DNA of 64,000 nt from Cupriavidus phytohabitans. Its GTDB lineage: Bacteria; Pseudomonadota; Gammaproteobacteria; Burkholderiales; Burkholderiaceae. The stretch is taken from assembly GCF_000426345.1 (NCBI RefSeq), contig NZ_AUFE01000012.1, forward strand, positions 62,001-126,000. The letters are read 5' to 3'. Under the pieces are notes generated by a model. That model was not told the DNA's origin. It worked only from the letters and a program-made list of their open reading frames with translations, and did no database searches. Below, piece after piece: positions 1 through 4,585 of this stretch (position 1 is its first letter; every line of letters starts with the position of its first letter). The translations under genes and the position numbers were made by a program.

Positions 1-570
1 TATCCCGAGCACAAGCAGCAGGCTCTAAACGAGTTCACAACGGAACGCCTCTGCTCTTACTACCTATCCAATCCGATGGTCATGCAACCCGCGGTGGAAT
101 CGCTTCAGGAAGCGCTAAAGCTTCGGGGAAACGGACACGCCGCTGCGGCCGTGGTGTACTGCGCAACTACGATCGAACTATTCCTGAAGGCAACAGTTTT
201 ACAGCCCGTCGTGCATGGGCTCATACATAGTCCCGCCTTGGCAGACGTCATAGTTAAGTACGCCGTCGGGCAGACTGGTTTTGACCGATATCGCGCACTA
301 TTGTCCCGGCTGTTTGAAGAACTGGCCGGCATAGAACTTGCGCAAGTGGCACGCGAAGGGGTGAAGGACGCTCTTATCAACGAGAGTCGCAAGGTTCAGG
401 AACTTAGAAACGAAATTATTCATAAAGGCATCCGGTGCGAAGCTGCTGCCACAGATCACGCCATTGACGTCGCGGCTGCGGTTTATCACCAGATCGTTAT
501 GCCGATGCTTTGTTCGCTGGGTCTCACAGTGGGGGAGAAGGGGCGCATCGGACGAAGGCCGTCGCAGTAA
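1..570 (+). CDS. HEPN-like hypothetical protein, 5' end outside the window
   Basis: The frame is open from the first base of the window, so the true start is probably to the left; the first in-window ATG is at 76 (164 residues from there). The protein is mostly helical in character. Near its C-terminal third it has the string LRNEIIHKG, which matches the R-x4-H signature of HEPN domains, the helical nucleotide- or RNA-binding/RNase folds common in toxin and defence loci. No MNT-type nucleotidyltransferase partner is visible. Base composition is clearly less GC-rich than the genes after 2.8 kb, in keeping with an island. The HEPN assignment rests on the motif alone; the protein could also be an unrelated helical protein. 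Confidence 0.6.
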   Translation, partial: YPEHKQQALNEFTTERLCSYYLSNPMVMQPAVESLQEALKLRGNGHAAAAVVYCATTIELFLKATVLQPVVHGLIHSPALADVIVKYAVGQTGFDRYRALLSRLFEELAGIELAQVAREGVKDALINESRKVQELRNEIIHKGIRCEAAATDHAIDVAAAVYHQIVMPMLCSLGLTVGEKGRIGRRPSQ

Positions 571-585
571 AAGGAAAGGGAAAGG

Positions 586-608
586 AAAAAAAAGGGCCCT
601 AAGGGCCC
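586..608 (-). terminator. Rho-independent terminator of the HipA-like/DUF3037 operon
   Basis: Read on the minus strand, a perfect 6-bp stem GGGCCC with a three-base loop (594-608) is followed by a run of eight T (586-593). It lies 20 bases after the stop of the DUF3037 gene. On the plus strand it also sits just after the HEPN-like gene but has no T tract there, so it mainly serves the minus-strand operon. Confidence 0.85.
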
Positions 609-627
609 GCAGATCTTGTCTCAATTC

Positions 628-1503
628 CTAATGGGGTCTCGCTCCATCCGAATGGGGCGAATGCGCTTCAATTTGCTCGCCAAGCGAATCTATCAGTTTC
701 CCCTCGTCTTCCTCAAGAAAGATCTCCATCGGAACGCTTTGGACATTCTTAAGAATACCAACCGCGCGATGGAAGGCATCATTTAAATCTGGTGAGCTTG
801 GCTTTGCTAATAGTAGGTAGATTTTGAACTTCTCAGAAGCATCGCTCACTCCGACAATCTCGCCGGCGCATTTCTGTGCCTTTTCACGAATCGAATCGGC
901 CGCCACCAGATCAAAGGAGACTGGCTCTACACAATGCCATAGACCGTTTTTCCAGGCGAGATCGAATTTCACGTCATCGTTTTTCCCGTGAATAGTCTTC
1001 TCTTCGAAGTAGGAAAGGAGATGGCGCTTTTCTAATTGCTTCTTGAACGAGCGCCAAACATCATCGTCGGTTCGTCCAAGCTTGCCTTTGACTCTGTCGT
1101 ATTTGCCGGCATAACGCTCATAGAGACGCGCGAATGTAGCCTCCGTGTCCGCACTCAGGCCGGAAGAAATCGTACTCCATTGCAGGCCGCTGTCGTCTTT
1201 CGGCACTACGGACATGAGTATTTCTTGGAGTCCGCTTTCGCGCGAGTCAAGCTCTAAAGGAGCTTCGTAAGCTTTTCTCACGGATTCAAACCTCTGGGTA
1301 ACGCCACGAATCACCGTCCTAAACGAGCTGTGGGACACGTCCGGAAGGATTTCGCTGATTCGGCCGAGAGATTTCCGAAATTTGAAATGTACGCGCTTTT
1401 CCCGAGGTGAAAGTAAAACCACCCCGACGTTAACAAATTCGCCGGTGGCAATATCGTGGATATAGCGAAGAACAGAATAAAAATAAGGAGTGCGTGCTTT
1501 CAT
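628..1503 (-). CDS. DUF3037 family protein
   Basis: 291 residues. The N-terminus (YFYSVLRYIHD...GEFVNVGVVLLSP) is the hallmark of DUF3037, a family of unknown function commonly found next to a HipA-like kinase. The start ATG overlaps the stop of the upstream kinase gene in an ATGA arrangement (1500-1503), so the two are translationally coupled and probably made in fixed ratio. No membrane segment or signal peptide is seen. Base composition is below that of the core genome. The function is unknown; co-occurrence suggests the kinase and this protein act together, possibly as a regulator or target of the kinase. That part is inference. Confidence 0.8.
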   Translation of the reverse strand: MKARTPYFYSVLRYIHDIATGEFVNVGVVLLSPREKRVHFKFRKSLGRISEILPDVSHSSFRTVIRGVTQRFESVRKAYEAPLELDSRESGLQEILMSVVPKDDSGLQWSTISSGLSADTEATFARLYERYAGKYDRVKGKLGRTDDDVWRSFKKQLEKRHLLSYFEEKTIHGKNDDVKFDLAWKNGLWHCVEPVSFDLVAADSIREKAQKCAGEIVGVSDASEKFKIYLLLAKPSSPDLNDAFHRAVGILKNVQSVPMEIFLEEDEGKLIDSLGEQIEAHSPHSDGARPH

Positions 1504-2300
1504 CTCAGGACTCCTAATGCTTCATCCACCAAGATACGAATGTTCTGCTTGACGTCAGCAAGGTAAGGGATAACCCGTGCAGCAACATCATTGCTTGGCA
1601 GCCAGTCAGGCGGCAGCGCGCTGAAGTAGGCTTCAAAGCGCTCGTCCGGGAGATCTTCCCATGCTTGGACGAATCTGTCCAAATTCTCCGGGCAGGTAGC
1701 AAGGTTCGGTTTGGCGAAGATGTGGCGCTCAGGCGACGCATAGTTATCAAAACCGCCGTCTTCCCACGGCGCCCGCCAAAAGAGAACCTGGTGGGAGTTG
1801 AACGTCAACTCATGATCGAAGATGGCCAGGTTGCTCCCTGAGAACAGGCAGTTTGGGTTTTCGGGGCGTCGGTCAGCGTTCACAATGATGCCATCGAAGG
1901 CGAAGATCTCCGCGGCCTCCGTACATAGATTTGCAGGAACCGTCTGGCCCTTTACCCACACCACAAAGCCATTGGGCAATCGGCGGGAACCGAATGCCAG
2001 CGCATGGCTTCGACGCATGAATTCAGCACGTTCAGCATCCTGCTGCGCCATCAAGTCTATGAATTCTGGCGTGAGCGAGACAATGAACGGCTCAGGAACC
2101 GGTAGAGCCAGATCGGCCGCTAGCATACTTGCTACAGCTTCGATCGCCAAATTTTGGACGCCCTCCATTGTCCCTGCGGAACACTTTGTAACGATTTCGA
2201 TCGGCCGTTCGTCGTCGCCTTCACACTCGAGAAGTAGGGGAGCGGTACGGCCGCTTTCCATCGGTTTGATGAAGCGGGTGGCTGTCACCAGTTCGAGCAT
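1500..2300 (-). CDS. HipA-like kinase domain protein (HipA_2 type)
   Basis: About 266 residues from the ATG at 2300; a longer frame starts at 2357 but its extra 19 residues look non-homologous and its Shine-Dalgarno is too close. The sequence starts with MLELVTATRFIKP and has the kinase-like signature FDGIIVNADRRPENPN followed by IFDHE, which correspond to the catalytic-loop Asp/Asn and the metal-binding Asp of HipA-type Ser/Thr kinases. Unlike classical HipA there is no HipB antitoxin beside it; the partner is the coupled DUF3037 gene. In related islands the two genes travel together. It may be a toxin-like or regulatory kinase; its substrate cannot be told from sequence. Confidence 0.75.
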   Translation of the reverse strand: MLELVTATRFIKPMESGRTAPLLLECEGDDERPIEIVTKCSAGTMEGVQNLAIEAVASMLAADLALPVPEPFIVSLTPEFIDLMAQQDAERAEFMRRSHALAFGSRRLPNGFVVWVKGQTVPANLCTEAAEIFAFDGIIVNADRRPENPNCLFSGSNLAIFDHELTFNSHQVLFWRAPWEDGGFDNYASPERHIFAKPNLATCPENLDRFVQAWEDLPDERFEAYFSALPPDWLPSNDVAARVIPYLADVKQNIRILVDEALGVLR

Positions 2301-2365
2301 CTGCCAAGCCCCGTAAGGCAAAACTTCAATTTTACATTTCTGAGTCGCCCGGCACATACCCCTGA

Positions 2366-2560
2366 AGTGTCAGTAGTGCGTCCCGCGGCCCGTCGGACGG
2401 GCTGCTTCAAGTCGATAGCGTGGATGACGGCGCGTGGCTGTTCGGGCACGTCCTGGCCCTTGGAATGGAGGTGTGGTCGGCAAGCGCGCCGGGTCAGCCT
2501 ATCGATCGGGCGAGCGGTCGCGGGGACAACCTGGAGATCAAGCGGCCGGGCGCGCGGTGA
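2366..2560 (+). pseudogene. Possible coding remnant at the island edge
   Basis: A 64-codon open stretch that follows an in-frame TGA at 2363-2365 and ends in TGA at 2558-2560. It has no credible start codon. The translated end (GDNLEIKRPGAR) looks protein-like, so this may be the 3' remnant of a mobile-element gene. I do not recognise the family. It lies in the 476-base stretch between the kinase gene and the diguanylate cyclase gene, which otherwise holds only the tRNA scar. The stretch could be open by chance. Confidence 0.25.
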
Positions 2561-2723
2561 TGCCGGGAAGCTCTGCGCTATCACACCGCCCTAATTGGAC
2601 TGCACCTAAATTGCACCTAGGCTGGGCTGGATTGGCCCTTGCTGACCTTGATTGGCCTTGATTTTGCAATTTGCGAGTTGCGCAAGGCATTGATTTATAA
2701 CGCGTTCTGGTTCGTCACCAAAA

Positions 2724-2768
2724 CTCCGAAGGCAGGGGTTGCTGGTTCGATCCCAGCCGGGCGCGCCA
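2724..2768 (+). other. tRNA-Arg(CCG) 3' fragment, probable att site of a genomic island
   Basis: The 45 bases fit the 3' part of a tRNA: anticodon loop with CCG (2726-2728), 3' anticodon stem GGCAG, a five-base variable loop, a perfect T arm (GCTGG / TTCGATC / CCAGC, 2741-2757), the 3' acceptor strand CGGGCGC, discriminator G and encoded CCA (2766-2768). The matching 5' half is absent: no CTGCC anticodon strand, D arm or GCGCCCG acceptor strand precedes it. The geometry points to tRNA-Arg(CCG). Such a 3' fragment is what integrases leave at the distal end of an island inserted in a tRNA gene. Confidence 0.8.
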
Positions 2769-2833
2769 ATCCCATCCGGGTTCCCGCATTTCCAGAACGA
2801 CGAACAACAACAACCAGGTGGTTCCCGCTGCGC

Positions 2834-4585
2834 TCAGGCTGTCGGCGCAGGGGCGGGCACGCTGTCGCCCACCGGTTCCGGCACCCGGTCGTCGCTGACT
2901 ACCCGGTCGCGGCCCGCGTTCTTGGCGGCGTAGAGACGTCGGTCCGCCACCATCAGCATGGTGTCGAGGTTGTCGGTGCCGTCGGCGCCGAGATCCGATA
3001 CGCCGATGGAAACCGTAAATCGAATCTCGCCCTTGTGGGCCGCATCGGGGGCCGGCTCGCATACTGCCTGGCCAAGGATGCCGCGCAGCCGCTCGGCGGC
3101 CTGGGCCGCTTCCTCGATGCCGGTGTGCGGCAGCAGCACGGCGAATTCCTCGCCGCCAATGCGCGCCGGCACGTCGATGGCCCGCACGGTCGCGCGCGCC
3201 ACATCGGCAAGCTTCCTCAGCACGCGGTCGCCGCTGGCGTGGCCCCAGTTGTCGTTGATGCGCTTGAAGCGGTCGATATCTATCATCAGCATCGACATCG
3301 GCGTCTTCTCGCGCAGGCTGCGGTTGTGCTCGACGGCAAATCGCGCCTCGAACACGCGGCGGTTGGCCAGCCCCGTCAGCGCGTCGGTCTCGGCCAGTTC
3401 GCGCAGCGCTTCGCCGCGGGCGAGGTAGTGCGAGAACAGCTTGCGAAAGCCCTGCAGCGTGACCCACAGCAGCACCGCCAGCGACAGCGCGCTGGCCGCC
3501 AGCACCGCGCTCAGGCGCGAGGCGGCGCGCAGCAGCAGGTCCGTGGCGGAGAAGTAGTCCACCAGCATCAGGTTGCTGTTGCCGATGCGCTGGAACATCA
3601 GGCGGCTGCCGTCGGCCAGGTGTATCGTGCCGGCGCCGCGACTGAACATCTCCTCGGGCGTGGCGGCGCGCGACGAGGGTGGCACGACCGAGGCAATCTT
3701 TTCGACACCATTGACGTTGCGCGTGCTGGCGCCGATCAGGTGGCCGTCGATATCGATCAGGAAGCTGCGCACGCCCTTGCGCGTGGTGTTGGTCAGGTAG
3801 GCGTCCAGGCTGCGTTGCGAAATGCCGGAAATTGCCACGCCGCGGAACTGCGCGTGCAGGTAGACCGGCAGGCTCAGCGTCAGGTACATGTCGCCGCTGC
3901 CATCGTCAGCCGGCACTATCTGCCAGCGCAGGGTGCGGTCGGGATTGTTGTGTGGCTGGTGCTCGCGCATGAAGCCTGCGTTGCTGACGCGTCGCAATAC
4001 GGCGGCGGCGCGCGCGGGCGGCACCGGCGGATAGGTAACAAAGAAGCCGTTGGTGGACACGTACATGAGCTTGCGCGTGACCAGTGGGTTGACCGGCTCC
4101 GCGCTCAACAGCTGGCTGAGGCCGCGTGCCACGTACAGGCCGGGCAGCAGGTCTTCGTCGCGGCGGTAAAAGCCGTCCATGCCTTCCAGCAGGCGCGGGC
4201 CGACGCCCAGCAGCGCCGCATCGCCTTCAGGTGCCGGCAGTTGCCACAGGTCATCGTTGCGGTGCGCGTAGGCAGCTTGCAGCGGCGGGTCGACTTCAAC
4301 CGCGTGCGGGCCCATCTGCAGGCGGATCAGGTGCTGGGCGAAATTGCGCACGCTGCGCAGCCGCTCGGATTCCACGTTCAGCACCGAGCTGATGCCAGCC
4401 ACTTGCAGTTGCTGGGTTTGCTGCAGGGTCTGCACTTCGTGGTCGCGCAGCACTACCAGGCCGTGTACGGAAATGACCAGCAGTAGCACGGAAGCGGCAG
4501 CAAAGGACAGCACCACGAAGCGTTGCGGCGTACGCACTGCCTGCTCCCATAGGCGGTCGAGCAGTGCGGAAAGGCGGGGGCGCAT
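2834..4585 (-). CDS. Membrane-bound diguanylate cyclase (GGDEF)
   Basis: 583 residues. The start at 4585 is chosen because GGAG sits about six bases upstream; a frame opening at 4618 lacks this. A transmembrane helix lies at about 23-46, then a roughly 300-residue periplasmic sensor of dCache-like size, a second helix at about 357-380, and a C-terminal GGDEF domain. The active-site loop reads GGEEF (about 477-481), a functional variant. An inhibitory I-site RAID (RxxD) stands exactly five residues before it, so product inhibition by c-di-GMP is expected. No EAL domain is present. The enzyme should make c-di-GMP from two GTP in response to a periplasmic signal. The ligand is unknown. Confidence 0.92.
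   Translation of the reverse strand: MRPRLSALLDRLWEQAVRTPQRFVVLSFAAASVLLLVISVHGLVVLRDHEVQTLQQTQQLQVAGISSVLNVESERLRSVRNFAQHLIRLQMGPHAVEVDPPLQAAYAHRNDDLWQLPAPEGDAALLGVGPRLLEGMDGFYRRDEDLLPGLYVARGLSQLLSAEPVNPLVTRKLMYVSTNGFFVTYPPVPPARAAAVLRRVSNAGFMREHQPHNNPDRTLRWQIVPADDGSGDMYLTLSLPVYLHAQFRGVAISGISQRSLDAYLTNTTRKGVRSFLIDIDGHLIGASTRNVNGVEKIASVVPPSSRAATPEEMFSRGAGTIHLADGSRLMFQRIGNSNLMLVDYFSATDLLLRAASRLSAVLAASALSLAVLLWVTLQGFRKLFSHYLARGEALRELAETDALTGLANRRVFEARFAVEHNRSLREKTPMSMLMIDIDRFKRINDNWGHASGDRVLRKLADVARATVRAIDVPARIGGEEFAVLLPHTGIEEAAQAAERLRGILGQAVCEPAPDAAHKGEIRFTVSIGVSDLGADGTDNLDTMLMVADRRLYAAKNAGRDRVVSDDRVPEPVGDSVPAPAPTA

Follow-up and report, generated by a model that had tools for sequence, protein, structure and literature searches.

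What are the kinase gene and the DUF3037-encoding gene that overlap at the beginning of this window (the whole stretch of 64,000 nucleotides analysed, C12:62001-126000 of the 7.58-Mb assembly), given that the first-pass annotation had proposed them as a toxin or defence module of the HipA type with a logic of its own? Our analysis makes it very likely that they are a HipAD (PDC-M66) toxin-antitoxin pair, which a P2-like prophage in tRNA-Arg(CCG) carries as cargo for defence against superinfection. Within this analysis that reading draws on gene content, the coupling of the two genes and its conservation, the kinase residues, the predicted fold, the location in a prophage and the variable stretch that follows the portal gene; from relatives it draws on the need for the kinase in defence and on the toxicity that follows loss of DUF3037. 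By analogy with these relatives we infer both that the window member behaves as they do and what its trigger, its kinase target and the roles of the domains in its DUF3037 protein would be. The features of the locus are collected in Table 1.

Table 1. Features at and around the kinase-DUF3037 pair, in window coordinates.
Feature	Position	Strand	Evidence or remark
Neighbouring cargo gene, outside the pair	1..570 (C12:61887-62570)	+	weak HEPN match; starts left of the window
Intrinsic terminator after the pair	594..608	-	GGGCCCTTAGGGCCC then eight T; T run extends below 594
DUF3037 protein (HipD-like), presumed antitoxin	628..1503	-	291 aa; Pfam, PADLOC, AF2
ATGA overlap, kinase stop / DUF3037 start	1500..1503	-	sequence; same 4-bp overlap in relatives
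HipA_2-family kinase, presumed toxin	1500..2300	-	266 aa; Pfam, PADLOC, start by alignment, AF2 fold
attR	2724..2773	+	50-bp copy of the 3' part of tRNA-Arg(CCG) and the following bases; identical to attL

Both open reading frames lie on the minus strand where the first-pass annotation had placed them, and they overlap as the ATGA that it had described (1503-1500). The span that it gave to the pair, 628-2357, holds for the reading frames as such (at full extent the kinase frame runs from 1500 to 2357 on the minus strand and encodes 285 aa), but its kinase end probably lies too far upstream; because the starts of close relatives align there, we place the start at 2300, which is Met20 of the longer frame. 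Four of six close relatives start exactly at this methionine and the other two have two or three residues more, and the consensus of 54 kinases likewise starts at Met20. The kinase is matched by Pfam HipA_2 (E 2.4e-16, 60.2 bits against a cut-off of 27) and by the PADLOC model PDC-M66A (E 1e-64, model positions 9-264 of 270). Its kinase residues had been called intact, and this was borne out: the NADRRPEN and FDHE motifs are both present, and K39, E54, N141, D143, R144, N150 and D162 (266-aa numbering), which we take to be active-site positions as in HipA and related kinases, are invariant in 104 of 104 aligned kinases, with position 19 of the G-x-[ST]-x-P loop being Ser or Thr in 95 of the 104.

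Structural modelling (AF2; pLDDT 96.3, pTM 0.93) predicts that the kinase adopts a PI4KII/CtkA/HipT/HipA-like fold, as seen in matches of the model to the PI4KII structure (Z 15.4, rmsd 3.9, 232 aligned), CtkA (Z 14.7, rmsd 3.5, 206 aligned), actin-fragmin kinase (Z 14.2, rmsd 3.6, 222 aligned), Legionella HipT (Z 12.4, rmsd 3.9, 198 aligned) and HipA (Z 11.4, rmsd 4.2, 204 aligned). Searches of the PDB returned no relative by sequence and, by profile, only actin-fragmin kinase at E 0.14. As a single query the kinase found no relative among viral contigs or phages, and a search of plasmids returned four records matching the kinase and three matching the DUF3037 protein.

The partner protein is matched by Pfam DUF3037 (E 5.9e-17, 62.4 bits against a cut-off of 22.6) and, over model positions 3-279 of 281, by PADLOC PDC-M66B (E 2.3e-79). 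Its AF2 model (pLDDT 91.5, pTM 0.67) has two parts, the DUF3037 domain at about residues 9-131 and a C-terminal alpha/beta domain at about residues 143-281, the latter with no match in Pfam. Against the PDB, the DUF3037 sequence gave only a weak match to a tautomerase (E 0.91) and the DUF3037 profile only weak matches to de novo proteins, a connectase and the CdiI immunity protein (E 0.03-0.15). DUF1829 was found neither in the window protein nor among the families listed for 55 aligned relatives, and Pfam likewise did not match it in HipD of the temperate phage PhiR5_1, whose record annotates its own pair as HipA toxin and HipD antitoxin. As it is missing from both the window protein and PhiR5_1 HipD, Pfam DUF1829 is no marker of the HipAD family as a whole.

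The C-terminal domain raised the question of a nuclease-like fold. Among the fold-search matches listed for residues 143-281 were BstEII (Z 8.3, rmsd 3.9, 132 aligned), Cdn1 (Z 8.0, rmsd 3.9, 120 aligned) and PspGI (Z 7.2, rmsd 3.1, 121 aligned), but ATP-citrate lyase (7.2) and GTPases (6.5) score there too, and the tool itself cautions that a model lacking a clear match typically reaches a best Z of 7 to 8. Foldseek returned nothing at E 0.001 or better. The active site of PD-(D/E)XK nucleases is a D ... (D/E)-x-K motif, and here the candidate for the third-strand motif is E193-P-V195. In 55 of 55 relatives L, V or I occupies position 195, and an active site of this type was rejected on the grounds that the K of E-x-K is replaced throughout. 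Because the Z scores are middling, Foldseek gave no match and this K is replaced, the resemblance to nucleases in fold is suggestive only. One could go further and picture a two-part antitoxin, in which the kinase is held inactive by the DUF3037 domain, while the C-terminal domain, a restriction-nuclease-like module without catalytic activity, senses phage DNA or a phage anti-restriction factor and triggers release of the kinase; we give this elaboration a small chance of being right. If it were true, DUF3037-only proteins beside related kinases would be a minimal form without the sensor. Five loci (L024, L026, L028, L030 and L031) do encode, beside HipA_2-like kinases, short DUF3037 proteins with nothing beyond the DUF3037 domain, and these are possibly a minimal form of the antitoxin.

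The overlap between the two genes recurs widely, being exactly 4 bp in 170 of 173 measured database pairs, a count in which many viral loci are near copies of each other and for which the script chose, among start codons, the one closest to the expected position, a choice that favours 4 bp and cannot create the frame relation. Because so many of the pairs share this value, the overlap is more than a chance feature. A terminator had also been noted after the pair, and it is indeed present on the pair's strand; five terminator-like sites were found against 2.7 expected in shuffles, only the one at 608-594 has such a T run, and its polarity suits the kinase-DUF3037 pair, not the plus-strand gene ending at 570. 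Rfam searches of window positions 1-3000 found no family, and a weak scan for sigma-70-like promoters found none on the strand of the pair.

That no HipB-like protein is encoded here was also upheld, with the DUF3037 protein having no helix-turn-helix match in Pfam or PADLOC and four flanking small frames (three ahead of the kinase, one past the pair) having no Pfam match at E 0.01 or better. We further compared the 150 bases upstream of 54 kinase starts with 60 Markov-resampled versions of each sequence, which revealed only one sequence with a palindrome matched by 5% or fewer of its resamples. The window's own palindrome, GCCCGTCCGACGGGC, lies about 95 bases upstream of 2300, is listed by a repeat tool as well, and reached 0.12 in the resampling. 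Because no operator-like palindrome is conserved upstream of these kinases, HipB-like autoregulation finds no support in sequence here.

Turning to distribution, a PDC-M66B protein occurs in three of 60 genomes of the same genus and a PDC-M66B match in 21 of 398 genomes drawn across the phylum, and the window DUF3037 protein matches 14 of 399 genomes of the order, all three counts including the genome under study. A kinase relative lies on the same locus in 23 of 23 loci from the same-genus and phylum scans, although the match in L015 is short and about 270 bp away and those in L023 and L033 were found only by profile. The order scan added 11 further loci, 10 of them with a kinase (as short frames in L040 and L047); the remaining one, L044, starts at a contig end.

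The first-pass annotation had suggested looking for co-occurrence of HipA_2 and DUF3037, and this proved strong in database scans that were queried with DUF3037 and not with the kinase. A profile of eight DUF3037 proteins gave the best 80 of 114 confirmed genome loci together with 25 viral loci, and a broader DUF3037 profile gave the best 80 of 159 confirmed viral loci, of which 79 were scanned (L034 being the contig of L128). Among the loci listed, the DUF3037 gene is immediately preceded by a kinase frame of the same orientation in 73 of the 80 genome loci, in 22 of the 25 viral loci and, for the second viral scan, in 77 of 79, and tblastn adds a kinase in L058 and L101, which brings the figure to 174 of 184 loci listed; these counts are not independent, many viral loci being near copies. 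Among the loci without a counted kinase, L080, L128 and L145 are at contig ends, and in L164 (3575-4834) the kinase is interrupted by about 1.3 kb of inserted DNA with the DUF3037 frame open and of full length. Six of the 184 loci listed (L051, L059, L068, L126, L144 and L221) have no detectable kinase beside DUF3037, so the kinase is not the exclusive companion of DUF3037.

Two of these six have neighbours that we labelled by eye. In L051 (1951-2415 and 2545-3405) the DUF3037 protein comes just after a TIR-like gene and near restriction-modification-like genes, and from this arrangement it may be that the partner of DUF3037 is exchangeable. In L068 (4152-5783 and 5836-6852) the DUF3037 protein directly follows an AlbA/Schlafen-type ATP-binding-like gene.

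The coupling of kinase and DUF3037 extends across kinases of several phyla. In a quick tree of 104 kinases, from which the tested DS-6 and Retron-Sda1 sequences were left out, the window kinase falls in a set of nine rows (SH-aLRT 97) within a set of 62 rows (95), its partners in the smaller set being kinases from two Massilia species, a MAG, a same-order genome and four viral contigs. The PhiR5_1 kinase falls in a separate set of 35 rows (SH-aLRT 99), where the program warns that long branches meet, and 44 of the 101 inner branches of the tree are open. A third set of seven rows holds kinases with short DUF3037 partners; L026 was aligned as one with a short partner but is absent from the tree. 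On these sequence comparisons the window pair appears to be a divergent HipAD member, in another tree set than the HipAD of PhiR5_1.

The setting of the pair had been described as a low-GC island, and the base composition agrees with this (GC 0.521 and 0.528 in the first two kb of the window, against 0.678 beyond 2800). The island is, however, the cargo end of a P2-like prophage, with the pair located between the portal gene and attR. The matching attL lies on the same contig at C12:26208-26257, 38.5 kb to the left of attR, and begins inside tRNA-Arg(CCG) (C12:26177-26252). Between the two sites are 38,516 bp, and all 10 of the proteins compared with PHROGs match phage families (integrase, primase, two tail proteins, tape measure, head closure, major head, scaffold, terminase and portal); an Ogr/Delta protein is also encoded there. 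From this gene set we read the element as a P2-like prophage of 38.5 kb integrated in tRNA-Arg(CCG). Over 7% of the query in each case, its left half (18.9 kb) is 73-80% identical to the Burkholderia phages AP3, Mana and KS14, and IMG/VR holds a viral contig of 37,197 bp with an identical DUF3037 gene at its very end, where the kinase is thereby cut off. The prophage also carries a DNA N6/N4 methyltransferase gene (MTase_II; L008 8970-9725, minus strand, C12:35070-35825; PADLOC E 3.7e-119).

We then asked what related prophages hold in the same place. A portal protein match occurs in 13 of 60 same-genus genomes (own included), three of them as short fragments only, and ten regions (L249-L258) from nine other genomes with a long portal match were compared, their cargo stretch being defined from the portal gene onward, without att boundaries. 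The portal is common to all ten, no two share the same set of frames after it, and a few single frames are common to two of the ten. Because gene content after the portal differs among related regions in this way, the pair is one of many interchangeable cargoes of related prophages.

PADLOC was run on 10 cargo proteins from eight of the ten regions (none from L249 or L257) and revealed known defence families at E below 1e-29 in three of the eight, namely ShosA with a cytosine methylase in L252 (E 1.6e-105), bSEFIR in L258 (E 2e-116) and PDC-M38A in L255 (E 2.9e-30). L253 and L256 gave weak PADLOC matches only, and the cargo proteins of L250, L251 and L254 gave none. Pfam recognised DUF4062 in L251, PRTase-CE in L253 and ORC-CDC6-like in L256, and the cargo of L250 and L254 includes large proteins without a Pfam or PADLOC match. 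In the prophage studied here, a 580-aa protein with an N-terminal SEC-C motif adjoins the portal gene (L007 2864-4606, minus strand, C12:58864-60606); it has no other Pfam match, and its PADLOC matches are only around the same short stretch. The plus-strand gene at the window's left edge has a sub-threshold HEPN match (E 0.05-0.06) and an RNEIIH motif, which presumably resembles the HEPN ribonuclease signature, and it is possibly a second defence gene.

In the HipAD reading, the HipA_2 kinase would stop growth by phosphorylating a cellular target, and in the uninfected lysogen it would be bound and silenced by the DUF3037 protein, whose translation is coupled to it through the 4-bp overlap. 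Infection by another phage would upset this complex, and the kinase so freed would arrest the cell before new phage is released. The toxin-antitoxin arrangement, its conserved translational coupling and its place right next to the attR of the prophage would also suit a prophage maintenance (addiction) pair, in which the kinase acts against cells that have lost the prophage and phage infection plays little part. We regard this as unlikely, given that two published systems of this family give protection against phage and that other defence families occupy the same stretch in some related regions.

Decay of the cargo is another way to account for the locus, the two frames then being without activity in the present host, and the low-GC stretch among uncharacterised cargo genes and the missing promoter in our weak scan both point in that direction; as both frames are complete in length and the residues of the active site, the 4-bp overlap and the terminator are all intact, it is in our view a very unlikely one. 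Least probable of all, with hardly any weight in our judgement, is that the kinase serves regulation or metabolism with the DUF3037 protein as an accessory, neither of them being toxic or defensive. The predicted fold is common to lipid and protein kinases of other function (PI4KII, CtkA, Fam20) and would allow it, but in relatives deletion of DUF3037 is toxic and defence is lost without an active kinase, and the patchy distribution of PDC-M66B within genus and phylum also speaks against it.

What the HipAD reading adds is a place for such a pair, in the cargo stretch of P2-like prophages of the genus of Cupriavidus phytohabitans, and a divergent subclade in which one can test what triggers the system, what the kinase targets and what the C-terminal domain does; that such pairs are defence toxin-antitoxin systems is not new.

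Compared with known systems, the window pair shares with HipBA and HipBST a HipA-type kinase fold, its kinase model matching both HipT and HipA, but it differs from them in gene order, with the kinase gene leading, and in its partner, a DUF3037 protein in place of HipB or HipS. Alignment of the 266-aa model with HipA begins only at HipA residue 139 or 147, which leaves the N-terminal part of HipA without a counterpart in that alignment. Membership of HipBA was rejected, as the adjacent gene is DUF3037 without a helix-turn-helix match and the flanking small frames have no HipB-type match, and so was membership of HipBST, there being a single partner gene, DUF3037, with neither HipS nor HipB detected beside the kinase. 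The pair of the Retron-Sda1 operon of Sphingobacterium daejeonense has the same two domains (HipA kinase and DUF3037) and adjoins a type III retron RT. The paper describing it reports that deletion of the kinase abolished defence against Bas51, that deletion of DUF3037 was toxic, that the RT and ncRNA were dispensable for Bas51 defence, and that PADLOC identified the two-gene system as PDC-M66 (PMC12548924).

Another close system is HipAD, the name to which DS-6 was changed, with Brenes and Laub 2025 cited for HipAD, according to PMC13092281. As in the window, a HipA_2 kinase is followed by a DUF3037 protein, whereas DS-6B is described there as DUF3037 plus DUF1829 and Pfam matches nothing in the C-terminal domain of the window protein. 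The same paper reports that DS-6 defence was lost on mutation of a key predicted catalytic residue of the kinase, and that AlphaFold3, given two copies of each protein and DNA, predicted strong contact between kinase and DUF3037 and a slightly weaker one with DNA (PMC13092281). With PhiR5_1 HipAD the window pair shares 25-27% identity (27% for the kinase), and both window proteins match the PADLOC PDC-M66 models over nearly their full length with no difference detected, a model that names a candidate system and not a mechanism. The earlier idea of DUF3037 as the restrainer in a HipB-less defence module thus has published precedent in relatives and, by analogy through the strong PDC-M66A and PDC-M66B matches, probably extends to the window pair; its novelty does not stand. 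A HipA_2 kinase gene with intact active-site residues and an adjacent DUF3037 gene on the same strand were found here, as in HipAD/PDC-M66, a type of system already published, named and tested in other bacteria.
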